From a virus: a DNA stretch of 33,612 nucleotides. The stretch is from positions 1-33,612 of the IMG/VR virus record IMGVR_UViG_3300044637_001129. One strand, given 5' to 3'. Position 1 is the first letter of the stretch. Each line of letters opens with the position of its first letter. The notes below the pieces were generated by a model, which ran no database searches, was not told the origin of the DNA, and worked only from the letters and a program-made list of their open reading frames with translations. The position numbers were made by a program, and so were the translations under genes. This document shows positions 23,561-33,387 of this stretch, piece by piece.

Positions 23561-23622
23561 TTTTCCACAAGTTAACTATACTTTTTCACAGGTTTTCCAC
23601 AAATATTTACTAGTTTTCCACA
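23561..23622 (+). promoter_or_regulatory. Left cluster of DnaA-type boxes
   Basis: Exact TTTTCCACA at 23561-23569, 23593-23601 and 23614-23622, with a variant TTTTTCACA at 23582-23590. All four read on the plus strand. Their starts are 21, 11 and 21 bp apart, close to 2, 1 and 2 turns of the helix, so the boxes face the same side of the DNA. Confidence 0.65.
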
Positions 23623-23691
23623 GGCATATTCACTGGGTTTCACTATAATCACTGTCCCCCACTGTGTTCTCACTGATTATCACTTAAGACC

Positions 23692-23700
23692 TGTGGAAAA
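23692..23700 (-). promoter_or_regulatory. Single inverted DnaA-type box
   Basis: TGTGGAAAA on plus, that is TTTTCCACA on minus, lying between the left cluster and the plus-strand promoter. Confidence 0.55.
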
Positions 23701-23720
23701 CTATCACTGTCAAGGGGTCA

Positions 23721-23779
23721 TGTGCCAGTTCTGAGTGTGTCTGAGGAGTGTTGACATTTGGGGGAGTTTGTGATACAAT
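23721..23779 (+). promoter_or_regulatory. Plus-strand stem-loop/promoter cassette, TTGACA-17-TACAAT
   Basis: TTGACA (23751-23756), 17-nt spacer, TACAAT (23774-23779) with an extended TGA before it. A degenerate copy of the 24-nt stem-loop unit (left arm TGTGCCAGTT, 23721-23744) lies 6 nt before the -35. The total of 59 bp equals the length of the minus-strand cassettes, so this is an inverted member of the same family. Transcription from about 23786 would run through the iterons and the right box cluster. There is no plus-strand gene there. Confidence 0.7.
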
Positions 23780-23850
23780 GTGGGCCAAGATCACAACAAG
23801 TTACACCATTTCTGGACACATTTATTATAACAATAGATCACTAGAACATG

Positions 23851-23890
23851 AGACATTTAGAGACATTTAGAGACATTTAGAGACATTTAC
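23851..23890 (+). repeat. Four tandem 10-bp iterons
   Basis: AGACATTTAG is repeated three times exactly and a fourth time with C as the last base. The 10-bp period is close to one helical turn. The repeats sit downstream of the plus-strand promoter and just before the right cluster of DnaA-type boxes, as initiator-binding iterons often do. Confidence 0.8.
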
Positions 23891-23914
23891 TGAATATAAC
23901 ACAATTAACACACT

Positions 23915-23946
23915 TTTTCCACAACTTTATCACAAACTGTGGAAAA
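23915..23946. promoter_or_regulatory. Right cluster of DnaA-type boxes
   Basis: Exact TTTTCCACA at 23915-23923 (plus) and 23938-23946 (minus), facing each other, with a variant TTTATCACA at 23926-23934 between them. Starts are 11 and 12 bp apart. Together with the iterons this forms the right edge of the origin-like region. Confidence 0.6.
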
Positions 23947-24574: not shown

Positions 24575-24868
24575 TCAGTTGTTTTCTTCTTTGTGATGAT
24601 CAAACATCATTTCATTGATCTCATCATGATTGACAAGTTCATCATCCCAGGATACACCATCTCTGGTTTCATGTTGATCACAATTTACCATGCACTTGAT
24701 GAACTTTTGGTAGGGGGTTTCTTTATCAGCATTGTGATACTCTACACATGCCACTGCAGTATTATACAGAAAGGGTTGATTCTGAATCCACAGAGATACA
24801 TTCCAGGTTTGATAATTTGCCCAACCATTATAGGTTTGGGGTTTGGTGGTTGTGGTTTGATTTTTCAT
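24575..24868 (-). CDS. NGWxNYQTWNV-family protein (DUF7249-like), leaderless
   Basis: 97 aa. The motif YNGWANYQTWNVSLWI (13-28) marks a small family widespread in phages and plasmids of unknown function; DUF7249 is my tentative match. The C-terminus is acidic and His-rich (DEINEMMFDHHKEENN). A longer frame exists upstream, but its extra codons lie inside the promoter and stem-loop. The ATG at 24868 comes exactly 6 nt after TATCAT, so the mRNA should start with AUG. The first codons (MKNQTT) are shared with other cassette genes. Confidence 0.75.
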   Translation of the reverse strand: MKNQTTTTKPQTYNGWANYQTWNVSLWIQNQPFLYNTAVACVEYHNADKETPYQKFIKCMVNCDQHETRDGVSWDDELVNHDEINEMMFDHHKEENN

Positions 24869-24874
24869 ACATGT

Positions 24875-24934
24875 ATGATAGCATGGATTTAGGGAAAAGT
24901 CAATGGGGTGTGTGCCACTTGTTCTAGTGGCACA
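24875..24934 (-). promoter_or_regulatory. Cassette 1: stem-loop plus promoter TTGACT-17-TATCAT
   Basis: The stem-loop (24911-24934, 9-bp perfect stem TGTGCCACT/AGTGGCACA, 6-nt loop) begins 16 nt after the stop of the 63-aa gene. After 7 nt comes TTGACT (24898-24903), then 17 nt, then extended -10 TGC-TATCAT (24875-24880), then 6 nt and ATG. Confidence 0.85.
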
Positions 24935-24950
24935 GCATATCATTTAGAGG

Positions 24951-25142
24951 TCACACATCCATGCTATCATCATAATCATTTTCCATGATGTAGGCATCAG
25001 TAGGATAATCTTCAACCACAGGAACTTGATCCTCTTGAGTATCAACTACAGCATCAAGAATCTCAAGCAATTGATTACCATCTTGTGCCTTTGCAAGCAT
25101 AGACATTGCAACAACTTTAGGCATGGAGATAGTAGCAGTCAT
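24951..25142 (-). CDS. Small conserved acidic protein with LxxAxxGxxLLxILDA motif
   Basis: 63 aa: MTATISMPKVVAMSMLAKAQ, then DGNQLLEILDAVVD (21-34), then an acidic tail ending SMDV. The helix motif L-x-x-A-x-x-G-x-x-L-L-x-I-L-D-A recurs in the 49-aa protein at 30378-30527, so the two may be distant paralogues. I recall similar short proteins from cyanophages; function unknown. An inner ATG (residue 7) is a possible start. It follows the ArdA-like gene in the same operon. Confidence 0.65.
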   Translation of the reverse strand: MTATISMPKVVAMSMLAKAQDGNQLLEILDAVVDTQEDQVPVVEDYPTDAYIMENDYDDSMDV

Positions 25143-25171
25143 TTGGTTAATTATGAAAAGGAAAATGCAAC

Positions 25172-25267
25172 TTAGAAGGTTGCAGAAAATCCACCTAGAA
25201 GGAAGGATTTAGTGCAATCATCAATAGTTTTTGTTGAACACAAAACCACCATTAAATGCAAAATCAT
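25172..25267 (-). CDS. Doubtful 31-aa ORF in the gap between two genes
   Basis: The 141-nt gap between the ArdA-like gene and the 63-aa gene holds a frame MILHLMVVLCSTKTIDDCTK followed by SFLLGGFSATF. There is no ribosome site, and a small inverted repeat (TGCAAC/GTTGCA, 25167-25185) overlaps its end. It may be non-coding. Confidence 0.25.
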   Translation of the reverse strand: MILHLMVVLCSTKTIDDCTKSFLLGGFSATF

Positions 25268-25283
25268 AGCGAAGATTACAATT

Positions 25284-25652
25284 CTAGGTTGCAGTCCAGT
25301 CTACAACAACAGGAGTATCATTCAGATTGATTGCATAACAATCAGACACATATTGTTCTGCAAAGTCTTCCTCACTGTCATACTGCCCATAATAGGCATC
25401 AGGGAAATGTGCAATGCAATCAATACCAAACTCATCAATGAAAGCATCTACTGCCTCATAAGAATAGTCTTCACCATTCTGCACATATTCTTCATAGAAG
25501 TTCAGGAAATTGTCATTTCCAAACTGTTCAATGAAGGCAACCATGTCCTCTTCTGCATAGTTTTGAACTTTCAGTTCATCAATCATTTCCTGCACATTTT
25601 GAGGAATGGAGGTAGCAAGAACTTGAGTCATTTCAGTGGTTTGATTTTTCAT
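25284..25652 (-). CDS. ardA-like: ArdA-like antirestriction protein, leaderless
   Basis: 122 aa. The segment FPDAYYGQYDSEEDFAEQYVSD (83-104, quoted in full 20+2 as FPDAYYGQYDSEEDFAEQYV then SD) matches the conserved ArdA motif F-x-D-A-W-W-G-x-x-D-S-E-E-x-F-A (E. coli plasmid ArdA, from memory). ArdA is an acidic DNA mimic that blocks type I restriction enzymes; this protein is strongly acidic throughout (FIEQFGNDNFLNFYEEYV, EDYSYEAVDAFIDEFG). It is shorter than classical ArdA (about 165 aa) and lacks most of the N-terminal domain. As first gene after a cassette promoter with AUG at the predicted +1, it would be made at once after infection, as an antirestriction protein needs. Confidence 0.72.
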   Translation of the reverse strand: MKNQTTEMTQVLATSIPQNVQEMIDELKVQNYAEEDMVAFIEQFGNDNFLNFYEEYVQNGEDYSYEAVDAFIDEFGIDCIAHFPDAYYGQYDSEEDFAEQYVSDCYAINLNDTPVVVDWTAT

Positions 25653-25658
25653 ACATGT

Positions 25659-25718
25659 ATGATAGCATGGATTTCAGGATTTTGCAAGGAGGTTTGTGCC
25701 AGTTCTACAAGTGGCACA
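25659..25718 (-). promoter_or_regulatory. Cassette 2: stem-loop plus promoter TTGCAA-17-TATCAT
   Basis: Stem-loop 25695-25718 (TGTGCCA/TGGCACA, 7 bp, 10-nt loop), 7 nt, TTGCAA (25682-25687), 17 nt, TGC-TATCAT (25659-25664), 6 nt, ATG of the ArdA-like gene. Confidence 0.8.
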
Positions 25719-25726
25719 TGATATAA

Positions 25727-26005
25727 CTAACAGGCACCTGCCATAGGATTACCAAGTTGCGGAAGATTGACGTTGTCCTTAACAAACTCATACCCATAAG
25801 AAGCATACTCACGCAGTTGCAATTTCTTCTCAACTGTGTTAATGAACTTCTTTGAGATTGTCTCAATACCTTGCCACTCTAGAACCTTAAATGTCCAGGT
25901 TTTGGATATATCACCAAAGGGAGTTTTAACAGGATAGAATGACACAATCATTGTGCCATCCTTAGATTTTAGAGTGGGGAACTCAGTTGTGATTTGATTT
26001 TTCAT
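25727..26005 (-). CDS. Hypothetical early protein, leaderless, single-gene unit
   Basis: 92 aa: MKNQITTEFPTLKSKDGTMI, a beta-rich part VSFYPVKTPFGDISKTWTF, a helix ETISKKFINTVEKKLQ and a C-terminal LPQLGNPMAGAC. No known domain. The ATG is 6 nt after TATCAT, so a leaderless mRNA is expected. It shares the MKNQ opening of its neighbours. A stem-loop follows its stop at once. Confidence 0.65.
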   Translation of the reverse strand: MKNQITTEFPTLKSKDGTMIVSFYPVKTPFGDISKTWTFKVLEWQGIETISKKFINTVEKKLQLREYASYGYEFVKDNVNLPQLGNPMAGAC

Positions 26006-26011
26006 ATGTGT

Positions 26012-26071
26012 ATGATACCATGGATTCCAGCAAAAATCAAGTGCTATTGTGACACTTCTACATCTGGCACA
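26012..26071 (-). promoter_or_regulatory. Cassette 3: stem-loop plus promoter TTGATT-17-TATCAT
   Basis: Imperfect stem-loop 26048-26071 (TGTGACACTT, loop CTAC, ATCTGGCACA) overlaps the last codons of the 76-aa gene. Then TTGATT (26035-26040), 17 nt, extended -10 TGG-TATCAT (26012-26017), 6 nt, ATG 26005. Confidence 0.78.
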
Positions 26072-26274
26072 TCAGTATCAATCTTGTCCATCATTTGCAG
26101 TACAATCAGATCAATTTTGTCAAGAACAGTTAGTGTAATATTCTTGACCTTTTCTTTGCCATTGTTTTGATTGAAACTCCGCACCATAAACGATACCACA
26201 CCCACAATGATTGCGGAGATAGTAGCAACATTGTAGATTAGAGTTTGAGTAAAGGTTTTAGTAAAGTTTTTCAT
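26044..26274 (-). CDS. Small membrane protein
   Basis: 76 aa, one clear membrane segment LIYNVATISAIIVGVVSFMV (12-31), a basic patch NGKEKVKN, then an amphipathic helix VLDKIDLIVLQMMDKID and acidic end. Probably an inner-membrane protein made early; function unknown. It begins MKNF like cassette genes but has no cassette directly before it and depends on the HAD gene promoter. Confidence 0.65.
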   Translation of the reverse strand: MKNFTKTFTQTLIYNVATISAIIVGVVSFMVRSFNQNNGKEKVKNITLTVLDKIDLIVLQMMDKIDTDVPDVEVSQ

Positions 26275-26365
26275 GTTGTTTAGAAATTAACATCACACAT
26301 TGATGCATGTTAAACATCATCAATGCTATCACAATCCCTAACTTTTGTTCATCACTGGTCACCAT
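26258..26365 (-). CDS. Possible 35-aa membrane peptide
   Basis: A frame beginning MVTSDEQKLGIVIALMMFNM with a hydrophobic middle overlaps the HAD gene end by 14 nt and the 76-aa gene start by 17 nt. The overlaps fit the compact style of the region but no ribosome site is seen. Otherwise the 77 nt here would be a leader. Confidence 0.35.
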   Translation of the reverse strand: MVTSDEQKLGIVIALMMFNMHQCVMLISKQHEKLY

Positions 26366-26825
26366 AGTCTGCCCAGAAATCATCATTATGAGAGGGACGA
26401 ATGCAATGCACACCATGATCACGGATAACTTGTGCATTGAAAGGTGAATCATCAACCCAGAACTTAATGTCATCCCAGAAACGCAGAATGTCCATCAGTT
26501 GCTCACCTTTACATTGTGAGCCAGTAGAATCATCATCACTGTTCTTCATATAAAGTGCATCAAACTCTGGGAGATGTTGTTGCAACCACATTGCAGTTCC
26601 TTCCACATACTCATCAGGACGTGCAGTAGCAATAACTAGATCAAATCCATTAGATTTGCAATGCTTAGCAACATCAACAACAGCATCAATAGCAGGGAAT
26701 TGATCACATTCATCAAATCCAGTTTGTGAACCATGATGACACAGAGTTGCATCTAGATCAAATACAACACAGGTAGGATTGCTGATGTTGTAAATGAGTT
26801 TGGAGAAAGTTTTGTTTTTTTGCAT
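26352..26825 (-). CDS. HAD-family phosphatase, leaderless
   Basis: 157 aa. All four HAD motifs are visible: VVFDLDATLC (D23, D25, T27: nucleophile and acid/base), IATARPDEY (T67), a lysine in SQCKGEQL, and FWVDDSPFNAQVI (paired D). The pattern and size resemble the 3'-phosphatase part of T4 polynucleotide kinase and other phage HAD proteins; it might act on nucleic acid ends or nucleotides. No kinase domain is present. ATG lies 6 nt after the -10 box, so it is leaderless like its neighbours. Confidence 0.85.
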   Translation of the reverse strand: MQKNKTFSKLIYNISNPTCVVFDLDATLCHHGSQTGFDECDQFPAIDAVVDVAKHCKSNGFDLVIATARPDEYVEGTAMWLQQHLPEFDALYMKNSDDDSTGSQCKGEQLMDILRFWDDIKFWVDDSPFNAQVIRDHGVHCIRPSHNDDFWADYGDQ

Positions 26826-26831
26826 ACTGCA

Positions 26832-26891
26832 ATGATAGCACGGATTTCAGGATTTTGCAAGCACTATAGTGCCACTTCTACAGGTGGCACA
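26832..26891 (-). promoter_or_regulatory. Cassette 4: stem-loop plus promoter TTGCAA-17-TATCAT
   Basis: Stem-loop 26868-26891 (GTGCCAC/GTGGCAC, 7 bp), 7 nt, TTGCAA (26855-26860), 17 nt, TGC-TATCAT (26832-26837), 6 nt, ATG 26825. Confidence 0.82.
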
Positions 26892-26902
26892 TGATAACAC
26901 TA

Positions 26903-27040
26903 TTACTGCTTAATTTGTGATAGTTGTGTATTGAGTTGCTCTGCATGAGTTTGTACAATGTTCAGACCAACATCTAGGATTTGCGCAACACCACTGAATC
27001 CAACAGTAGCAACAACTAGACCAGCAAAAAACAGTTTCAT
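26903..27040 (-). CDS. Small secreted or membrane peptide
   Basis: 45 aa: MKLFFAGLVVATVGFSGVAQ is a signal-peptide-like hydrophobic segment (2-20), followed by a polar helix ILDVGLNIVQTHAEQLNTQL. The ATG follows the preceding stop directly (TAAATG), so it is translated by coupling. It is the last gene of its operon and is followed 11 nt later by a stem-loop. Function unknown. Confidence 0.65.
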   Translation of the reverse strand: MKLFFAGLVVATVGFSGVAQILDVGLNIVQTHAEQLNTQLSQIKQ

Positions 27041-27217
27041 TTAGTTAATATCAAAAATGTCAAACAACTCAAATTCAGTTTTAGTGAACAGATTTTGAGG
27101 TTCTGGATAGTTGTGAACTTCCTGTTGAAGTTCTTTATACACATACATCATATTACGAAGAGCAGTCAACTGCTTCTCTGTAAGAGCATCTTCAATCATT
27201 AGAACTTGATCAAGCAT
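27041..27217 (-). CDS. Small hypothetical protein
   Basis: 58 aa from ATG 27217: MLDQVLMIEDALTEKQLTAL then RNMMYVYKELQQEVHNYPEP, helical, with an acidic end FELFDIFDIN. A GTG further upstream would extend it into the preceding gene with a hydrophobic segment, which I think unlikely because the ATG lies 7 nt after the upstream stop. No family recognised. Confidence 0.6.
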   Translation of the reverse strand: MLDQVLMIEDALTEKQLTALRNMMYVYKELQQEVHNYPEPQNLFTKTEFELFDIFDIN

Positions 27218-27224
27218 GATATTA

Positions 27225-27449
27225 TCAGTTAGGGAGAACACAAAATGTACCACACCAACCACGAACCCAGTTAAGAGTTTCACTGTAACTGGTGCGAGGT
27301 TTGGACATCACCATGCTACAATTCTTCTCAGGATTGTATGCAATAGCAACATACTTATCTTCAACTTTTTGAATCCACATTTGATTCACTTTACCTTCCT
27401 TCCAGTTGGTGTGATAGTGGTAGACTTGAGAGGTGTTTTGATTTTTCAT
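27225..27449 (-). CDS. Hypothetical early protein, leaderless
   Basis: 74 aa: MKNQNTSQVYHYHTNWKEGK, then NQMWIQKVEDKYVAIAYNPE, then YSETLNWVRGWCGTFCVLPN. It looks like a small beta fold with many aromatic residues. It shares the MKNQ opening encoded by the cassette. ATG is 6 nt after TATCAT. No known domain. Confidence 0.68.
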   Translation of the reverse strand: MKNQNTSQVYHYHTNWKEGKVNQMWIQKVEDKYVAIAYNPEKNCSMVMSKPRTSYSETLNWVRGWCGTFCVLPN

Positions 27450-27455
27450 ACTGCA

Positions 27456-27514
27456 ATGATACCATGGATTTGGGGTCTGTGCTCATTTCGTGTGACACTA
27501 GTACAAGTGGCACA
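27456..27514 (-). promoter_or_regulatory. Cassette 5: stem-loop plus GAGCAC-17-TATCAT
   Basis: Imperfect stem-loop 27491-27514 (TGTGACACTA...AAGTGGCACA) lies 5 nt after the HNH stop. The -35 position holds GAGCAC (27479-27484) instead of a TTG-type box. After 17 nt comes TGG-TATCAT (27456-27461), 6 nt, ATG 27449. Confidence 0.75.
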
Positions 27515-27519
27515 TGGTA

Positions 27520-27909
27520 TCACTGACCTGACCTTCTTAATGGTCTACCATTGCCCCTATTCTTTGACTTGTAGGTATCAGTTTGAGAATGGCAATTAGG
27601 ACAAATAATTCTCAAATTATTTGGATTATTATTTGTATGGATACCATCAATGTGGTCTATTTCTAATGATAATGATTTTCCATTCCATTCATTAATTCCA
27701 CAAACTTCACATCTATTTCCTCTATCTTCAAATAAAATTGTTTTAATATATTTCCAACCAGGAGCATTTTGATTGTTATACCAATCTTCTCTTATTTGCT
27801 TTTTTTCATAACTCTTTTGACATTTATTTGAGCAATAAATGGATGTTGACCTTGTGCATTCGCAACCACAGTTCAAACAATTAGATCTTGGTTTTTTAGG
27901 ATTTGGCAT
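27520..27909 (-). CDS. HNH homing-type endonuclease
   Basis: 129 aa. N-terminal zinc ribbon C11-x2-C14 with C26-x3-C30, then the HNH fold: C67-x2-C70, DH at 85-86, N97/N98 in NNPNNLRI, C103-x2-C106 and H107. This is a free-standing HNH endonuclease of the kind that moves between phage intergenic sites. It lies directly after tRNA-Thr. Its leader holds a stem-loop with a perfect late promoter in the loop (27917-27949), an arrangement known from T4 I-TevI, so it is likely silent early and made late. Base and codon use is AT-rich like the structural genes. Confidence 0.88.
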   Translation of the reverse strand: MPNPKKPRSNCLNCGCECTRSTSIYCSNKCQKSYEKKQIREDWYNNQNAPGWKYIKTILFEDRGNRCEVCGINEWNGKSLSLEIDHIDGIHTNNNPNNLRIICPNCHSQTDTYKSKNRGNGRPLRRSGQ

Positions 27910-27916
27910 CTCAACT

Positions 27917-27949
27917 TACAACCTACTTTAGTTATTTATACAGGTTGTA
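27917..27949 (-). promoter_or_regulatory. Leader stem-loop controlling the HNH gene
   Basis: On minus, arms TACAACCT (27942-27949) and AGGTTGTA (27917-27924) form an 8-bp perfect stem, extendable by two G-U pairs, with a 17-nt loop that contains TATAAATA. The 3' arm holds AGG, the best Shine-Dalgarno-like sequence, 12 nt before the ATG. Read-through RNA from the tRNA operon would hide it; RNA from the internal late promoter lacks the 5' arm and would leave it free. Confidence 0.65.
27933..27940 (-). promoter_or_regulatory. Late promoter box TATAAATA for the HNH gene
   Basis: Perfect late consensus on the minus strand, 24 nt before the HNH ATG and inside the loop of the leader hairpin. Transcription should begin near 27926, downstream of the 5' arm. 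Confidence 0.72.
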
Positions 27950-27958
27950 GTTTGTATA

Positions 27959-28031
27959 AGCTCCCAGACGGAATTGAACCATCCTCTCCTGATTACAAGT
28001 CAGGTACATCGCCACTAAATGCTTTAGGAGC
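27959..28031 (-). tRNA. trnT: tRNA-Thr (anticodon UGU)
   Basis: Full cloverleaf on the minus strand: acceptor GCTCCTA/TGGGAGC, D stem GCAT/ATGT, anticodon stem CCTGA/TCAGG with loop CTTGTAA (anticodon TGT at 27995-27997), T arm GATGG-TTCAATT-CCGTC. No CCA is encoded. It reads ACA, common in the AT-rich structural genes. A late promoter box CATAAATA lies 20 nt upstream. Confidence 0.93.
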
Positions 28032-28037
28032 AAAAAA

Positions 28038-28352
28038 TCAGTCTTTGAGTGTATTTATGAGCATCCAAATACCAAGACCAAGAATACCAAATAGGAGGAC
28101 ATACTTCCAGGCAGCAATTAGAATAAATGCTGCAAATGCAAGTAATGCAAACCCAACATCAAATCCTGATGATGAACCAGAACTAGATTCTTCATCATCA
28201 GAACTGTATGAGTTGTCTATAACTGCCATGATACATTTACCACCAGTCATAGACTCAGCAAATGAAACTGCATCACTGTGAGAATATGCTTCTACCCTCA
28301 CAGTTTGTAACCAATTAGATGGTGTCCTTACAGTACACTTCCACTCATTCAT
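28038..28352 (-). CDS. Small membrane protein with two membrane segments
   Basis: 104 aa. A soluble N-terminus (MNEWKCTVRTPSNWLQTVRV...) with a VEAYSHSDAVSFAESMTGGK pattern, a Ser/Asp/Glu linker SSDDEESSSGSSSG (50-63), then two membrane helices at about 65-82 and 84-100. The start overlaps the nuclease stop (ATGA). Its end contains a late promoter box for the following tRNA. Function unknown; likely an inner-membrane protein. Confidence 0.72.
   Translation of the reverse strand: MNEWKCTVRTPSNWLQTVRVEAYSHSDAVSFAESMTGGKCIMAVIDNSYSSDDEESSSGSSSGFDVGFALLAFAAFILIAAWKYVLLFGILGLGIWMLINTLKD
28052..28059 (-). promoter_or_regulatory. Late promoter box CATAAATA before tRNA-Thr
   Basis: NATAAATA match on minus within the last codons of the 104-aa gene. 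Predicted start near 28045, some 14 nt before the mature tRNA 5' end at 28031. Confidence 0.6.
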
Positions 28353-29029
28353 TTGTTATTGTACTCCTGAATGTATTGCTTGAGAGTGTCAACATAATCA
28401 TCAGGATTCTTGACAAAAACTTGTGTTTCACCTGAATGACAAGAAACAAGGGTTACAATTTGTTCTACTTTGCGACCAGTCATTTCCTCATACATTTTAG
28501 CATAACCTGTCTCTTGCACAAAATAACCAAGAATCTGAGATTCATACTTTGGTTTAGAAGAACTCTTGAAGTCAATGATAGACAGTTTACCATCAAACTC
28601 TGCAATGCAGTCTACACGACCAGCAATGCCTAATTGTTCAGAATACAATGCACATTCTTGATAGTGAACATTGTTAATCATATCAAGCAGGTGCTTGAAT
28701 TGATTGAACAATTTTAGAGCAACTTCATAATTCTCATTGCCTTCATACTCTACAAAGTCAATGGAATTGTCCACATATTGCTCTACAATACTGTGGAACT
28801 TTGTACCATTAGTAGATGCAAACTGACTGATCTTGTTTGCAACTTCTTCACCTACACGTTGCCTCCACTCATTGATACTATGACGAGTCTGATAGGAAGT
28901 AACAGAAGTAATGGAAGGCAACAGTTTGCAATTCACACAATACTTACGAGAACCATTAACAGTTTGAGTAGGAATGTCTGCAAGTTTAGGCAGATCAAGG
29001 TGATTGAAAGGTTGAGAGATAGTCAGCAT
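28349..29029 (-). CDS. PD-(D/E)XK nuclease (MGME1/exonuclease-like)
   Basis: 226 aa from ATG 29029. Motifs: GTKFHSIVE with H79, E125 in YQECALYS, GIAGRVDCIAEF (D140) and LSIIDFKSSSKPK (D153, K155), then Q165 in ESQILGYF. This is the RecB-like exonuclease pattern, closest in my memory to the cyanophage exonuclease related to mitochondrial MGME1. It probably degrades or trims DNA in replication, recombination or host DNA breakdown. A TTG at 29062 would add 11 Asn-rich residues; neither start has a ribosome site. Second gene of the operon from cassette 6. Confidence 0.85.
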   Translation of the reverse strand: MLTISQPFNHLDLPKLADIPTQTVNGSRKYCVNCKLLPSITSVTSYQTRHSINEWRQRVGEEVANKISQFASTNGTKFHSIVEQYVDNSIDFVEYEGNENYEVALKLFNQFKHLLDMINNVHYQECALYSEQLGIAGRVDCIAEFDGKLSIIDFKSSSKPKYESQILGYFVQETGYAKMYEEMTGRKVEQIVTLVSCHSGETQVFVKNPDDYVDTLKQYIQEYNNK

Positions 29030-29066
29030 TTTGTTGTTAATAATGTTGTTGTTGGTAGTCAAAGAA

Positions 29067-29216
29067 TCAGAGAAACTCTGCCATGTAGTAATCTACAGTG
29101 ATTTCTAATTCTGCTGCTTTTGCTTCAAGTTCCATAGCATATTCTTCTGCCATTTGTGCATCAGCATGGTCACAGAAGAGATCAAGAGTGGAATCAGTCA
29201 TAAATTTATCTTTCAT
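29067..29216 (-). CDS. Small acidic protein, leaderless
   Basis: 49 aa from ATG 29216: MKDKFMTDSTLDLFCDHADA then an Ala/Glu helix EEYAMELEAKAAELEITVDY. A longer frame begins at 29255 but lies in the promoter and stem-loop. The chosen ATG is 6 nt after TATCAT. Acidic amphipathic helix; function unknown. Confidence 0.7.
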   Translation of the reverse strand: MKDKFMTDSTLDLFCDHADAQMAEEYAMELEAKAAELEITVDYYMAEFL

Positions 29217-29222
29217 ACATGT

Positions 29223-29282
29223 ATGATACCATAGATTCACCAGAAAGTCAATCATGTCTGTGCCAGTTCTACAAGTGTCACA
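29223..29282 (-). promoter_or_regulatory. Cassette 6: stem-loop plus promoter TTGACT-17-TATCAT
   Basis: Imperfect stem-loop 29259-29282 (TGTGCCAGTT, CTAC, AAGTGTCACA), 7 nt, TTGACT (29246-29251), 17 nt, TGG-TATCAT (29223-29228), 6 nt, ATG 29216. The stem-loop contains the stop codon of the 39-aa gene. Confidence 0.82.
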
Positions 29283-29397
29283 TTGTATAACTTTGGTGCA
29301 TCATTTTTTGTGTATCATGCTGAATCTGTTTGTCTGCATTGTTACTCACAACAAATGCAATCATCAAACAAATAATACAAAATACTGCTGATTTCAT
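29278..29397 (-). CDS. Small secreted or membrane peptide
   Basis: 39 aa: MKSAVFCIICLMIAFVVSNN is a signal or membrane segment (3-18), followed by polar ADKQIQHDTQKMMHQ. The start overlaps the preceding stop (ATGA) and the stop lies in the cassette 6 stem-loop. Function unknown. Confidence 0.62.
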   Translation of the reverse strand: MKSAVFCIICLMIAFVVSNNADKQIQHDTQKMMHQSYTM

Positions 29398-29804
29398 TTG
29401 TAGAGATAACTTCCTGCCCAGTCTGCACGTTTATACATTTGTTCACAAGATTGTTCATCTATAAGATTGTATCTCACACCCTTAGCAGGTGCCTTCCATG
29501 ATGCAGATTTGTATACATCACCAGTGTTAAGATCTACAAAGGCATGAGCACTTTTCTGTCCACTAGAGTTAATGTGAATGATTTTGGCATACTTTTTACC
29601 TTTCACATAGGTGTATTGATCAACACCTTCACCCATGCAAAGTTTATCAATTTGTTCCCTGTGCCATTCTTTAGTTTCAGGATCATCAAGAAACTTTCTA
29701 TGACATTCAATAGAATAAGATTGAAAGTTAGTACGCAGAACATCACAGAACTGCTCAATCTTGTCAATAACTTGTTCAGTGGTCAAAGTTGTGTTTTTAA
29801 TCAT
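29394..29804 (-). CDS. Conserved phage hypothetical protein, leaderless
   Basis: 136 aa. A helical N-terminus (TTEQVIDKIEQFCDVLRTNF) and a conserved C-terminal part AFVDLNTGDVYKSASWKAPA followed by KGVRYNL, a pattern I know from many phage hypotheticals. It looks like a small beta sheet that may bind ligand or protein. ATG is 6 nt after TATCAT. The following small membrane gene is coupled to it. Confidence 0.75.
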   Translation of the reverse strand: MIKNTTLTTEQVIDKIEQFCDVLRTNFQSYSIECHRKFLDDPETKEWHREQIDKLCMGEGVDQYTYVKGKKYAKIIHINSSGQKSAHAFVDLNTGDVYKSASWKAPAKGVRYNLIDEQSCEQMYKRADWAGSYLYK

Positions 29805-29810
29805 ACAAGT

Positions 29811-29869
29811 ATGATAGCATGGATTTGGGGTCTGTGCTCTTTTATTGTGCCAGTTCTACAGGTGGCACA
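29811..29869 (-). promoter_or_regulatory. Cassette 7: stem-loop plus GAGCAC-17-TATCAT
   Basis: Stem-loop 29846-29869 (TGTGCCA/TGGCACA) starts directly after the stop of the 70-aa gene. GAGCAC at 29834-29839, 17 nt, TGC-TATCAT (29811-29816), 6 nt, ATG 29804. It is identical over 51 nt (29802-29852) to cassette 11. Confidence 0.8.
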
Positions 29870-30082
29870 TCAATAACGACTAGGAAGGTCACAATATGGT
29901 GTAGAATCATAGTCATAACCACCACTCATTGATACTTGAGCATTATAGATCTCTTTTGCTTTATACAATGTAAACTCAATGTCTTCAATAAGTTCACTCA
30001 AATCATCATCAGTTTTGCCACGCAAAGCATCATCAATTCTATCAAATGATGCTGCTGTTTGTAGAGTATGTTGGTGTATCAT
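29870..30082 (-). CDS. Small hypothetical protein
   Basis: 70 aa: MIHQHTLQTAASFDRIDDAL, then an acidic helix TDDDLSELIEDIEFTLYKAK and a Tyr/Gly/Asp-rich end. The start overlaps the stop of the 41-aa basic gene (ATGA). It closes the operon that contains tRNA-Arg. No family recognised. Confidence 0.65.
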   Translation of the reverse strand: MIHQHTLQTAASFDRIDDALRGKTDDDLSELIEDIEFTLYKAKEIYNAQVSMSGGYDYDSTPYCDLPSRY

Positions 30083-30204
30083 TTTACTTTATATTTCTCT
30101 TTTATATGATTGAGTGCTTGTTTTCGTGCTTTAATCTTGCCTTTGCAAGTGCCTTTTGTATTCTTTTGTTTACCTGAGTTATGTATCCAGTTAGGTGTAT
30201 TCAT
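30079..30204 (-). CDS. Small basic protein
   Basis: 41 aa, very lysine-rich: MNTPNWIHNSGKQKNTKGTC then KGKIKARKQALNHIKEKYKV. Net charge is strongly positive, so nucleic acid binding is possible. It begins 15 nt after the tRNA-Arg gene. Its stop overlaps the next ATG (ATGA). Confidence 0.6.
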   Translation of the reverse strand: MNTPNWIHNSGKQKNTKGTCKGKIKARKQALNHIKEKYKVK

Positions 30205-30219
30205 TGTTCTTAAGTATAA

Positions 30220-30292
30220 CAGGCACAGAGGGACTCGAACCCCCAATCGTCATCTTAGAAGGATGTTGCATTATCCATTATGCTATGTGCCC
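30220..30292 (-). tRNA. trnR: tRNA-Arg (anticodon UCU)
   Basis: Cloverleaf on minus: acceptor GGGCACA/TGTGCCT (G1-U72 wobble), D stem GCAT/ATGC, anticodon loop CTTCTAA with TCT between stems CATC/GATG, T arm GGGGG-TTCGAGT-CCCTC. The fifth anticodon-stem pair is A-A. No CCA is encoded. It reads AGA, heavily used in the structural genes. A late box GATAAATA lies about 80 nt upstream. Confidence 0.9.
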
Positions 30293-30371
30293 AGAGTCCC
30301 TCCTGTTTGTGCATTGTTAAGAGGCATGGAGGGGGCAGGGACTTACTCAAAGTTTGGACCTTTGATGCCCC

Positions 30372-30379
30372 TATTTATC
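30372..30379 (-). promoter_or_regulatory. Late promoter box GATAAATA before tRNA-Arg
   Basis: NATAAATA match overlapping the stop of the 49-aa gene (TGATAAATA). Predicted start near 30365, in the 85-nt gap before tRNA-Arg, which holds no other gene. Confidence 0.55.
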
Positions 30380-30527
30380 AGAACTCAATCCATTCAGAGG
30401 TTGGTTGAGCAACTGCACTTTCAGTGGCACTGGTATCATCACTGTTGGTGATAGCATCAAGAATTGAAAGAATCTCACTGCCAGTTTGACCACGACGAAG
30501 AGCAGAAACCATCAGTTCAATAGACAT
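30378..30527 (-). CDS. Small conserved protein with LxxGxxxxEILxILDA motif
   Basis: 49 aa: MSIELMVSALRRGQTGSEIL then SILDAITNSDDTSATESAVA. The helix pattern A-L-x-x-G-x-x-G-x-x-I-L-x-I-L-D-A is shared with the 63-aa protein at 24951-25142. I recall similar short proteins in cyanophages; function unknown. It comes just before tRNA-Arg. Confidence 0.65.
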   Translation of the reverse strand: MSIELMVSALRRGQTGSEILSILDAITNSDDTSATESAVAQPTSEWIEF

Positions 30528-30537
30528 AATAAAGAAA

Positions 30538-30603
30538 TCAAGTGAAGAGAACAAGTTGGGTAACTTTATCGATCAGACATTTCCAATCCTTAGGCAAACC
30601 CAT
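30538..30603 (-). CDS. Possible 21-aa peptide
   Basis: MGLPKDWKCLIDKVTQLVLF plus T, in the 86-nt gap between the 45-aa and 49-aa genes, 10 nt after the stop of the former. The AGGA directly before ATG is too close for an ideal ribosome site. It may be real or the rest of a longer gene. Confidence 0.35.
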   Translation of the reverse strand: MGLPKDWKCLIDKVTQLVLFT

Positions 30604-30613
30604 TCCTATACAA

Positions 30614-30751
30614 TCAAGCAGTAAGTCCTATCTCAACATCTTCATCTTCATCAGGTAGATTATAAATGAGTTCATAGTAATCATCATAATCTACACCAAG
30701 ATAAGAAGCAAACTGTTCTAGATCATCATGTAGTTTGCAAGTGTCAATCAT
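30614..30751 (-). CDS. Small acidic protein
   Basis: 45 aa from ATG 30751 (MIDTCKLHDDLEQFASYLGV then DYDDYYELIYNLPDEDEDVE), strongly acidic. An upstream in-frame ATG at 30778 overlaps the -10 box and cannot be in the mRNA; GAGG stands 6 nt before the chosen start. This is one of the few early genes here with a normal leader. The charge suggests a DNA mimic or host-protein binder, but this is a guess. Confidence 0.62.
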   Translation of the reverse strand: MIDTCKLHDDLEQFASYLGVDYDDYYELIYNLPDEDEDVEIGLTA

Positions 30752-30776
30752 TGGTTCCTCAACTGTTGATGTATAC

Positions 30777-30835
30777 ATCATAGCACATAAACTCAGGTTT
30801 TGGGAGTGTCATGTGCCACTTTGATTGGTGGCACA
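30777..30835 (-). promoter_or_regulatory. Cassette 8: stem-loop plus extended -10 TATGAT
   Basis: Stem-loop 30812-30835 (8-bp TGTGCCAC/GTGGCACA) lies inside the end of the 42-aa gene. The -35 position has TCCCAA, unlike both other classes. Extended -10 is TGC-TATGAT (30777-30782). The gene starts some 20 nt after the predicted +1. Confidence 0.65.
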
Positions 30836-30921
30836 GTCTGTGCTTTAAGAGTCACAAATGGGTCTCCAATGAGGAGAATAGAAGTCAAAAGAATGACCTT
30901 CCAGAGTTTATCAGACATCAT
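30793..30921 (-). CDS. Small secreted or membrane peptide
   Basis: 42 aa from the first of two ATGs at 30921: MMSDKLWKVILLTSILLIGD is a signal-like segment, then PFVTLKAQTVPPIKVAHDT. The start overlaps the preceding gene by 11 nt. The cassette 8 stem-loop lies within its last codons. Function unknown. Confidence 0.55.
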   Translation of the reverse strand: MMSDKLWKVILLTSILLIGDPFVTLKAQTVPPIKVAHDTPKT

Positions 30922-31081
30922 ACAGTTTGTTAGCATTGAGTTGATCTTGATACCAAGCATTATCTGCTTCAGTGTTAAAGAACATTCCAAGCATAAAGTT
31001 ATAGTAATCTACCCACATATTACAACTACTTTCAAACCATTCTTGACTAGGTTTAGTAATAGAATAATCTTTGAAGTTCAT
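30911..31081 (-). CDS. Small aromatic-rich hypothetical protein
   Basis: 56 aa from ATG 31081: MNFKDYSITKPSQEWFESSC, NMWVDYYNFMLGMFFNTEAD, ending NANKLYDV. Two earlier ATGs overlap the -10 box. The leader is about 16 nt. It contains many aromatic residues; no family recognised. Confidence 0.6.
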   Translation of the reverse strand: MNFKDYSITKPSQEWFESSCNMWVDYYNFMLGMFFNTEADNAWYQDQLNANKLYDV

Positions 31082-31103
31082 TTCAGTTTTGTTTGATGAG
31101 ATC

Positions 31104-31162
31104 ATCATAGCATGAAGAGAGGCACTGTGCTCATTTACAGTGCCAGTTCCACAAGTGTCACA
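31104..31162 (-). promoter_or_regulatory. Cassette 9: stem-loop plus GAGCAC-17-TATGAT
   Basis: Imperfect stem-loop 31139-31162 (AGTGCCAGTT, CCAC, AAGTGTCACA) right after the stop of the 71-aa gene. GAGCAC at 31127-31132, 17 nt, TGC-TATGAT (31104-31109). Predicted start near 31097. Confidence 0.72.
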
Positions 31163-31164
31163 CC

Positions 31165-31380
31165 TTATACATCAACTTCTGCAAGTTTCTTCTTATTGCG
31201 CAGTTCTGTGATGATGATTTGTAGTTCAATTACATCCTGTCTACAATCTTCCAGATCTTCTACCATAATTTCATATTGATATTCACTTCTACACTTTCTG
31301 ATTTGCTTACTGAGTTTCTCATACCTCTTTTTTGCATCTTTGAGGTCTTTTTCGTATTCCTGAATAGATTTGTAGTTCAT
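31165..31380 (-). CDS. Coiled-coil protein
   Basis: 71 aa, almost entirely a charged helix with heptad pattern (YEKDLKDAKKRYEKLSKQIR, VEDLEDCRQDVIELQIIITE). Likely a dimeric coiled coil, perhaps acting with the small membrane protein before it, to which it is coupled (ATGA). Function unknown. Confidence 0.68.
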   Translation of the reverse strand: MNYKSIQEYEKDLKDAKKRYEKLSKQIRKCRSEYQYEIMVEDLEDCRQDVIELQIIITELRNKKKLAEVDV

Positions 31381-31502
31381 TTGATGTAAGGACTATTGAA
31401 ATAACGACGAAAAACAGTGATAAGAATAATAGCAGTGCTAGTAACACCAACCAAACCAAGGAAGGTAACAGCATTACCAGTAAAATCTAAATTGTTAGGC
31501 AT
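31377..31502 (-). CDS. Small membrane protein
   Basis: 41 aa with a single membrane helix AVTFLGLVGVTSTAIILITV (11-30) followed by basic FRRYF, so the C-terminus is probably cytoplasmic. First gene after cassette 10 with a leader of about 16 nt (no clear ribosome site). Its stop overlaps the next ATG (ATGA). Confidence 0.66.
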   Translation of the reverse strand: MPNNLDFTGNAVTFLGLVGVTSTAIILITVFRRYFNSPYIK

Positions 31503-31523
31503 TTGCTTTTTGATTACTTTGTA

Positions 31524-31582
31524 ATGATAGCAGATCTGAGAGCAAAAATCAAGAGGTAGTGTGCCACTTGATCAGGTGTCCA
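31524..31582 (-). promoter_or_regulatory. Cassette 10: stem-loop remnant plus TTGATT-17-TATCAT
   Basis: TTGATT (31547-31552), 17 nt, TGC-TATCAT (31524-31529). The stem-loop unit (31560-31582) has an intact left arm TGTGCCACTT but a changed right arm. It touches the stop of the 61-aa gene. Confidence 0.72.
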
Positions 31583-31768
31583 TCAGGGAGTTGGGTCAAA
31601 GTAAACAATTTCTTCTAGTGTAGGAAGAATCTCATATTGAATAGTTTCTAAATGAGTTCCCATAATAGTCATATCAATTTCATGGAGTTTATTTTCACGC
31701 TCTACAACTTCTTTAAGAATATTGTAGGCATTTTCAATTTGAGGATAAGAGTATATAATATTTGTCAT
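31583..31768 (-). CDS. Small hypothetical protein
   Basis: 61 aa: MTNIIYSYPQIENAYNILKE, helix VVERENKLHEIDMTIMGTHL, end LEEIVYFDPTP. The start overlaps the preceding stop (ATGA); a GTG two codons upstream is less likely. Mostly helical; no family recognised. Confidence 0.63.
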   Translation of the reverse strand: MTNIIYSYPQIENAYNILKEVVERENKLHEIDMTIMGTHLETIQYEILPTLEEIVYFDPTP

Positions 31769-32043
31769 TTCCACATACCACGCTGAATCATGTATTTTTT
31801 AATTTCAGTATATATAAACTTCTTAAGTTTTGGGTCATTGGTTTTATCAAATGCCTGATACATTCTCTTCAAATAAGCATCAGGAGTAGTAACACGAACT
31901 ACTTCAACTTTAGTAACACCAAGACCAGAGATAGGTGATCCTGCTTTAGTCTTAGGACGACCAAAGTTTCCAGTTACATTACCTTGAGTGCGAAGTTTGG
32001 GTTTAATCTTGGAAAGGTTTGAGGTCATTTGAAATTTATTCAT
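31765..32043 (-). CDS. Basic hypothetical protein, leaderless
   Basis: 92 aa, basic: MNKFQMTSNLSKIKPKLRTQ, then Gly/Pro-rich GNFGRPKTKAGSPISGLGVT and a C-terminal helix DPKLKKFIYTEIKKYMIQRG. A flexible basic N-terminus with a helical end could bind nucleic acid. ATG is 6 nt after TATCAT, so it should be leaderless. Confidence 0.68.
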   Translation of the reverse strand: MNKFQMTSNLSKIKPKLRTQGNVTGNFGRPKTKAGSPISGLGVTKVEVVRVTTPDAYLKRMYQAFDKTNDPKLKKFIYTEIKKYMIQRGMWK

Positions 32044-32049
32044 ACAAGT

Positions 32050-32108
32050 ATGATAGCATGGATTTGGGGTCTGTGCTCTTTTATTGTGCCACTTCTACAA
32101 CTGTCCTC
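32050..32108 (-). promoter_or_regulatory. Cassette 11: stem-loop remnant plus GAGCAC-17-TATCAT
   Basis: GAGCAC (32073-32078), 17 nt, TGC-TATCAT (32050-32055), 6 nt, ATG 32043. The stem-loop unit (32085-32108) keeps left arm and CTAC loop, but the right arm has changed to CTGTCCTC as it became part of the end of the 62-aa gene. Confidence 0.78.
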
Positions 32109-32896: not shown

Positions 32897-33306
32897 CAAT
32901 TTACTCCACAAAAAGACCACCAAGGTTGATCTTCACCTACAGTATCATCAAAAATATAGATAAAATCACAATCACTATTTTTTGCATACTTATACATTTG
33001 CTGATAATTTTTGAAATGCTTGGGATAGATTATATTTTCATCAGTCTCACCCCTTTCATAATAGTAAAGAGGTTGTTCTTCACGAGTATTATTATACTCA
33101 TCATTTACAAAGGCAGAATCCCAAGTAGTTTTAGTTTTGAGTGATGAAATATCACCACCATCAATCAAATCAACAACCTTACTGCGTGTTTGATAATCTT
33201 CTTTCAGGATCTTACCATTCCACTCAGGATAACCATCCCAATGACAATATACACCAGAATAGGTATTATCTTTGTGTTTGATTGAAATGAAACTACGAGT
33301 TCCCAT
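32896..33306 (-). CDS. Conserved phage hypothetical protein (MGTRSFI family)
   Basis: 136 aa. MGTRSFISIKHKDNTYSGVY then CHWDGYPEWNGKILKEDYQT is the signature of a family common in phages and some plasmids (function unknown), with the YCHWDGYP core. The C-terminus CDFIYIFDD and PWWSFCG complete the usual length. First gene after cassette 12, with a leader of about 16 nt. Confidence 0.8.
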   Translation of the reverse strand: MGTRSFISIKHKDNTYSGVYCHWDGYPEWNGKILKEDYQTRSKVVDLIDGGDISSLKTKTTWDSAFVNDEYNNTREEQPLYYYERGETDENIIYPKHFKNYQQMYKYAKNSDCDFIYIFDDTVGEDQPWWSFCGVN

Positions 33307-33328
33307 GTGTTTGATTGATTACAAAGTA

Positions 33329-33387
33329 ATCATAGCATGGATTTGGGGTCTGTGCTCTTTTATTGTGCCACTTCCACATGTGGCACA
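33329..33387 (-). promoter_or_regulatory. Cassette 12: stem-loop plus GAGCAC-17-TATGAT
   Basis: Stem-loop 33364-33387 (8-bp TGTGCCAC/GTGGCACA) lies 3 nt after the stop of the right-edge gene. GAGCAC (33352-33357), 17 nt, TGC-TATGAT (33329-33334), predicted start near 33322. Confidence 0.78.

Follow-up and report, generated by a model that had tools for sequence, protein, structure and literature searches.

Many small genes in the window (all 33,612 nt of IMG/VR virus record IMGVR_UViG_3300044637_001129) are preceded by a repeated unit that combines a hairpin without a U-tract, a sigma-70-type promoter (an extended -10, with an optional -35), a gap of 6 nt and the ATG of the gene. It is probable that this unit recombines between genes and gives rise to leaderless mRNAs, with an inverted repeat in it that would probably be an operator. 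Leaderless or nearly leaderless mRNA is the best reading of the cassettes with 6-nt spacing, as a prediction from sequence: host RNA polymerase would most likely take the A of the ATG, or a base no more than ~5 nt from it, as its start point, and, in place of a Shine–Dalgarno (SD) sequence, an A/C-rich, unstructured start would help ribosomes to load on the 5'-terminal AUG. The cassette promoters would form an early class, judged by their host-type sigma-70 motif.

An earlier note had named eight positions at which TATCAT and ATG are separated by exactly 6 nt, and the arrangement was confirmed at all eight, on the minus strand in every case. In each unit the hairpin comes first, followed by a -35 or an extended -10, the 6-nt gap and the ATG:

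24575..24934, minus strand: cassette 1 and gene; hairpin 24911-24934, -35 TTGACT 24898-24903, -10 TATCAT 24875-24880, spacer ACATGT 24869-24874, ATG 24866-24868, CDS 24575-24868 (phrog_871, function unknown)
25284..25718, minus strand: cassette 2 and gene; hairpin 25695-25718, -35 TTGCAA 25682-25687, -10 25659-25664, ATG 25652, CDS to 25284 (phrog_36653, anti-restriction protein)
25727..26071, minus strand: cassette 3 and gene; hairpin 26048-26071, -35 TTGATT 26035-26040, -10 26012-26017, ATG 26005, CDS to 25727 (phrog_500)
26352..26890, minus strand: cassette 4 and gene; hairpin 26869-26890, -35 TTGCAA 26855-26860, -10 26832-26837, spacer TGCAGT, ATG 26825, CDS to 26352 (phrog_415, polynucleotide-kinase type)
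27225..27514, minus strand: cassette 5 and gene; hairpin 27491-27514, GAGCAC replacing the -35, -10 27456-27461, ATG 27449, CDS to 27225
29067..29282, minus strand: cassette 6 and gene; hairpin 29259-29282, -35 TTGACT 29246-29251, -10 29223-29228, ATG 29216, CDS to 29067
29394..29869, minus strand: cassette 7 and gene; hairpin 29846-29869, -10 29811-29816, ATG 29804, CDS to 29394 (phrog_818)
31765..32106, minus strand: cassette 8 and gene; imperfect hairpin ~32085-32106, -10 32050-32055, ATG 32043, CDS to 31765

All eight carry the extended -10 TGnTATCAT, and five possess a TTGNNN -35-like hexamer 17 nt upstream; the cassettes at 27449, 29804 and 32043 have GAGCAC in its place, leaving the extended -10 as the element they would depend on. 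The ORFs opened by the eight ATGs encode 49–157 aa, and in six of them this ATG is the most upstream start codon of the frame, the frames of 24868 and 29216 extending further upstream through promoter and hairpin. No SD match was found upstream of any of the eight, as had been proposed. The window holds 10 copies of the pattern TATCATNNNNNNATG where 1.39 would be expected, a count reached in none of 100 shuffles, and 74 of the 86 hairpin-anchored promoters of related IMG/VR contigs have the ATG exactly 6 nt past the -10; chance spacing was therefore rejected.

In these related contigs the +6 ATG opened the longest frame of the gene in 74/74 cases, and the start lay 22–49 nt from the -10 in the remaining 12 promoters. 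Many related viruses thus share the arrangement, which stands in frame ahead of genes unrelated to one another. An initial pattern scan with AAATCCATGNTATCAT had returned mostly chance matches in unrelated viruses. The unique set comprised 78 cassettes with exact 6-nt spacing (39 clusters at >=86 %), copies that are related by recombination and do not represent 78 independent events. None of the 78 had an SD sequence, all had T at -1 and A at +1, and in 53 an in-frame stop preceded any other start codon. The first 27 nt after the ATG were rich in A and C (A.52, C.24, G.08, T.17, compared with A.31, C.16, G.23, T.30 inside genes), and the minimum free energy of the first 40 nt was -0.9, compared with -6.9 and -5.5 inside genes. 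CA repeats following the AUG raise translation of leaderless mRNAs (PMC9031893), and the A/C-rich, unstructured post-AUG sequence found here, with G at 0.08, agrees with that rule.

Judged by its sequence, the source virus is a T4-type cyanophage, Kyanoviridae-like and of freshwater type. The top tblastn matches, at the level of 40–46 % identity, were cyanophages or marine viruses (T4-type baseplate genes phrog_438, phrog_219 and phrog_261), the baseplate genes being nearest to those of Synechococcus phages, and megablast with the window returned no near-identical isolate. A divergent form of the cassette, with the 6-nt gap kept and different spacers, was present in marine isolates (Syn33, S-SSM4, S-MbCM6, Bellamy and others), and the +6 ATG is the annotated start in Syn33 and S-SSM4. 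The leaderless type is a minority in the marine isolates, most of whose promoters have 21–28 nt between -10 and ATG. The freshwater isolate DSL-LC03 was rejected as a laboratory model, since its promoters are predominantly leadered and 6-nt spacing is absent; one candidate has 4 nt.

Translation might start instead at an internal ATG, the promoter-proximal one adding a little-used, short in-frame extension. A second ATG lies 5–11 codons on in several genes (in the window, those at 25652, 29216 and 32043), and a second in-frame ATG that could act as start falls within 10 codons in 30/78 unique cassettes. Orthologues in leadered cassettes (L114, L088) begin near this second ATG, and the internal ATG is the annotated start in S-MS29, where AAGGAG precedes it, and in S-MbCM6. 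However, no SD preceded the next in-frame ATG in any of 34 cases in the IMG/VR set, codons 1–40 contained no other in-frame ATG in 25/78 cassettes and, in a further 19, one only from codon 18 onwards, and the in-frame position in 74/74 would be unexplained if the +6 ATG were unused; we regard an internal start as improbable. Sigma-70 start sites scatter by 1–3 nt, so that leaders of 2–4 nt or starts inside the ATG are possible.

Stems are present in the hairpins with no T-run on the gene strand, which speaks against canonical intrinsic terminators. The lack of a U-tract, and the occurrence of several of the small variable genes downstream of the cassettes in tandem, would also suit transcription from upstream that passes through the hairpin, in which case most messages would be leadered and the -10-like block of little importance. 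This is very unlikely, however, given that an extended -10 is present in every block, often together with a -35 at 17 nt, that these are conserved as a unit across contigs, and that read-through messages would offer no SD for the +6 ATGs.

Four other cassettes had been credited with leaders of about 16–20 nt; their -10-to-ATG distances of 21–25 nt correspond to expected leaders of 15–19 nt:

30751..30835, minus strand: leadered cassette; hairpin 30812-30835, -10 TATGAT 30777-30782, dyad TGATGTATACATCA, GAGGA in leader, ATG 30751
31081..31109, minus strand: leadered cassette; -10 TATGAT 31104-31109, dyad TGATGA-TC-TCATCA, ATG 31081
31502..31552, minus strand: leadered cassette; -35 TTGATT 31547-31552, -10 TATCAT 31524-31529, dyad ATTAC-AAA-GTAAT, ATG 31502
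33306..33387, minus strand: leadered cassette; hairpin 33364-33387, -10 TATGAT 33329-33334, dyad TGATTAC-TTT-GTAATCA, ATG 33306

Base 7 after the -10 was a purine in 10/11 leadered cassettes.

An inverted repeat spans the -10, the spacer and the ATG, and would probably be the operator of a dimeric protein. Binding of a dimeric repressor to TATCAT-ACATGT-ATGATA might itself set the 6-nt spacing, the ATG being a by-product later adopted as start codon, which we rate as quite possible, a little short of evenly balanced. In several relatives TATCATACATGTATGATA is a perfect 18-bp palindrome, and the arms covary: a G follows the ATG (ATGG) in seven of eight TACNAT contexts vs seven of 62 TATNAT contexts (Fisher p=2e-5), and a TATGAT -10 pairs with ATCA, the ATG then being lost. 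The mean best dyad had 7.22 of 9 pairs, compared with 6.18 when halves were swapped (0/2000), and the dyads TGATTACnnnGTAATCA and TGATGTATACATCA are retained in leadered cassettes without the ATG. Against this, the marine cassette of Syn33, S-CAM8 and S-MbCM6 has the 6-nt spacing but no obvious dyad, every +6 ATG is in frame, and half-site sequence and centre are more variable than one protein would easily tolerate. Those of the window proteins that were scanned with Pfam or PHROGs included no candidate regulator for the dyad, the small ORFs near the baseplate genes showing no DNA-binding domain. A bidirectional promoter arising from the palindrome gained no support: where the ATG reads ATGAAA, as it most commonly does, the reverse-strand hexamer (e.g. 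TTTCAT) is without the essential A.

An operator of this kind is compatible with leaderless messages, and disputes only the reason for which the spacing was kept. The earlier proposal of leaderless mRNAs is well supported by comparison as a predicted architecture (6-nt spacing, frame, lack of SD, T(-1)A(+1), A/C-rich, unstructured 5' ends and the marine cassette), and the initiation by 70S ribosomes and the benefit to early genes that it also put forward may follow. The spacing alone is no proof of selection for leaderless translation, since the -10 and ATG lie within an inverted repeat whose arms covary. That repeat had been missed, as had the likeness of the repeated cassette to PeSL elements.

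The unit would be swapped between genes by homologous recombination, bringing transcription and translation start together; both can be exchanged at once because its own start codon, and often several of the next codons, lie inside it. Codons 2–6 of unrelated genes were more alike within a contig (0.743) than after label shuffling (0.685; 0/500). Gene exchange with breakpoints in the cassette was found in one case, the near-identical relative L128, which has one extra cassette and gene compared with the window:

24856..24894, minus strand: block common to both L128 alignments, where recombination may have taken place within the promoter and start codon

More tentatively, and rather less likely, the cassette may be a mobile operator–promoter–start-codon module placed before unrelated genes, conferring leaderless messages, a short common MKNQ-type N-terminal tag and control by one dyad-binding regulator. 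Should the leaderless cassettes be borne out, phages would move a complete transcription and translation start signal as one short recombining unit, a newly gained gene would be expressed without a ribosome-binding site of its own, and cyanophages would have a leaderless translation programme on a scale known in few phages; N-termini and 5' ends are predicted to the base.

The unit resembles the PeSL elements (promoter(early)-stem-loop), mobile cassettes known from T4-type phages and reportedly described by Arbiol in 2010 and Comeau in 2014 (cited in PMC4503421). Both have a hairpin and a host-type promoter among small variable genes, many similar copies, and gene gain or loss at the repeats. 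What would set the present unit apart is that the ATG, placed 6 nt beyond the -10, and in many copies the first codons too, belong to it, that its hairpin lacks a U-tract and that a dyad overlaps the -10 and ATG. The marine T4-like cyanophages Syn9, Syn33 and S-CAM8 likewise have TTGACA-N17-TATNAT promoters, some preceded by hairpins, and S-CAM8 even a GTAATCAATCAAAC-type leader, but their leadered promoters have leaders of ~15–22 nt, often with an SD. Phage mRNAs starting at the AUG, as predicted here, include the lambda cI message, from a single repressor gene, and, in Thermus phage phiYS40, reportedly the majority of the middle and late transcripts, on a genome scale; phiYS40 uses later classes and another promoter type and lambda a single gene, whereas host-type promoters on small variable genes are involved here. 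Cyanobacteria translate leaderless mRNAs (PMC9938897), and in cvkR and cas12k of Anabaena 7120 the start codon lies at the +1 of the promoter, as predicted for the present cassettes. The CvkR-controlled promoters also carry a palindromic operator, AnnACATnATGTnnT, which differs in sequence from the dyad described here (PMC9938897). Those are single host genes with mapped 5' ends, whereas the present case is a repeated phage cassette read from sequence.

All eight of the TATCAT-N6-ATG sites that the earlier note had listed were present on the minus strand, and the pattern itself occurred 10 times in the window compared with 1.4 expected. The ATG opened an ORF at every site, six of the eight having no further in-frame start codon upstream. 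All eight possessed an extended −10 (TGnTATCAT) and an upstream hairpin of the GTGCCA...TGGCAC type (some copies imperfect), and five had a −35-like hexamer 17 nt off. The observation of exactly 6 nt between TATCAT and ATG was confirmed. Four further cassettes in the window, with TATGAT or TATCAT as −10, had 21–25 nt between −10 and ATG. The block found in the cassette promoters also occurred within a gene, at a place kept in the related contigs L114, L128, L129, L031 and L088, as a chance match, an antisense promoter or a recombination copy:

24951–25142 (−), gene whose 3′ end carries TCCATGCTATCAT on the opposite strand, at 24957–24970 (+)

Related sequences were collected through protein and DNA-pattern searches, with the hairpin and extended −10 as anchors and no demand for an ATG. 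The ATG lay exactly 6 nt from the −10 in 74 of 86 hairpin-anchored cassettes, a set somewhat biased towards ATG because one of the three collecting scans did demand it; in the other 12 the start was 22–49 nt away, with nothing at intermediate distances. The 6-nt ATG opened the longest frame in 74/74 cases, where an unused ATG would be in frame in about one-third. Distances from this ATG to a conserved anchor differed by whole codons within gene families. The 78 unique cassettes, which are mutually related (86 % identity across 65 nt groups them into 39 clusters), precede approximately 15–18 different kinds of gene.

At sigma-70 promoters, +1 usually falls at position 7 after the −10. The T directly before the ATG in 78/78 cassettes and the purine at base 7 in 10 of the 11 leadered cassettes (those with the start codon further downstream) both fit a +1 at this position. 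The lack of a Shine–Dalgarno (SD) site claimed for the window held throughout the unique cassettes (0/78 upstream of the ATG), and none preceded nearby internal ATGs in this set (0/34); six of the 11 leadered cassettes had one. The 27 nt after the ATG were rich in A and C (G 0.08 vs 0.23 further inside the gene), and the first 40 nt were almost unstructured (mean MFE −0.9 vs −6.9 and −5.5). Leaderless initiation in Escherichia coli is favoured by a 5′-terminal AUG, little structure and CA repeats after the AUG (PMC9031893), and the A/C-rich, weakly structured cassette 5′ ends share such features. Leaderless mRNA is the best reading of the cassettes and, as predicted from sequence, probably the correct one.

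A divergent form of the cassette was found in marine isolates by blastn with the cassette consensus as query. Syn33, S-CAM8, S-MbCM6, S-SSM4, S-MS29, Bellamy and S-CAM9 had a hairpin followed by a promoter-like block exactly 6 nt from an ATG, with a TTGNNN −35 at 17 nt in all except S-CAM8 and with the spacers ACAATC, ACAGTC, ATTAGT, AACAGT, ACTGGT and GGCCAC; S-RIM12, S-RIM14 and ACG-2014a aligned at 94–100 % across the stretch. In Syn33 and S-SSM4 the 6-nt ATG is the deposited start, and ACG-2014f has ATA at this site and a gene start 24 nt downstream. This cassette agrees with the leaderless reading. Distances from −10 to ATG across isolates were bimodal (6 nt, or mostly 21–28 nt), indicating that the leaderless design is a minority in isolates and the majority in the window's phage group. 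In S-MS29, a single gene may be started in both ways, leaderless and SD-led, and a leader with an SD-like site, TATAAGAGTCAAAGG, precedes the ATG at several marine cyanophage promoters, forming a second repeated hairpin–promoter–leader unit:

S-MS29 (L181), 463–498, leaderless-type ATG (ATGGAAAACAAAGGAGACCACATG), sharing its frame with another ATG that follows an AAGGAG site
Syn33 (L177), 8170, 11437 and 12649, TATAAGAGTCAAAGG-type leaders
Syn9 (L180), 46290, 47205 and 48559, TATAAGAGTCAAAGG-type leaders

The cassettes were alike ahead of unrelated genes. Across most of its length, the related contig L128 matched the window at 98–99 % identity, but it had one additional gene together with that gene's cassette; both alignments flanking this gene overlapped at window 24856–24894, within promoter and start codon. 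Unrelated genes also began alike (e.g. MKNQT, MKNQK, MINQ, MEKQ and MKDQ), similarity at codons 2–6 within a contig being 0.743 compared with 0.685 after contig labels were shuffled within gene families (0/500 shuffles; one family, whose N-terminus is fixed and particular to it, was excluded). Orthologues in other contigs were more similar (0.807), so exchange would be only partial. Breakpoints and shared codons are consistent with recombination via a cassette that has the start codon inside it.

The −10, spacer and ATG together form a dyad, TATCATACATGTATGATA being a perfect palindrome in some relatives. Its arms change jointly, TACCAT with ATGG, TATCAT with ATGA and TATGAT with ATCA (TACCAT/ATGG, Fisher p=2e-5, uncorrected for relatedness of the cassettes), and swapping right halves between cassettes lowered the symmetry in 2000/2000 trials. 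With TATGAT as left arm, the right arm holds no ATG, and the start codon used lies further downstream, sometimes behind an SD; this persistence of symmetry without ATG suggests a DNA-binding site that overlaps the core promoter. We infer a putative operator, and only that, because the dyad's centre and half-sites vary among cassettes and no regulator for it was found.

The large genes of the 33.6 kb window encode T4-type baseplate proteins closest to those of Synechococcus and Prochlorococcus myoviruses (40–46 % identity), which identifies the virus, on sequence grounds, as a divergent T4-like cyanophage; no close isolate was found in the phage collection searched. The leaderless-type cassettes sit in a small-gene cluster upstream of the baseplate genes, and Syn33 and like marine relatives keep small variable genes at the corresponding place. 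Other features of the window were:

23561–23946, 0.4-kb intergenic region with all six window matches to the DnaA-box-like TTTTCCACA (0.9 expected window-wide), a candidate replication origin
23850–23889, four perfect tandem copies of GAGACATTTA, adjoining the six TTTTCCACA matches
25284–25652 (−), leaderless gene 2, matching anti-restriction family phrog_36653
27520–27909 (−), HNH endonuclease gene directly ahead of cassette 5 and tRNA-Thr
27959–28031 (−), tRNA-Thr(TGT), among the small genes
30219–30293 (−), tRNA-Arg(TCT), among the small genes

The HNH gene could be a homing-type mobile gene aiding local gene turnover, and the phrog_36653 match suggests that the cassettes may serve counter-defence genes required soon after entry.

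Leaderless phage messages reportedly occur in number in phiYS40, and the novelty would therefore lie in the mobile cassette with its own start codon and in the cassette's dyad. The nearest known idea to the mobile unit, as described in a citing paper, is the promoter(early)–stem-loop (PeSL) cassette of T4-type phages. The cyanobacterial regulator CvkR, which represses promoters via a palindrome and is itself made from a leaderless mRNA, provides a precedent combining both themes of the window cassettes (PMC9938897).
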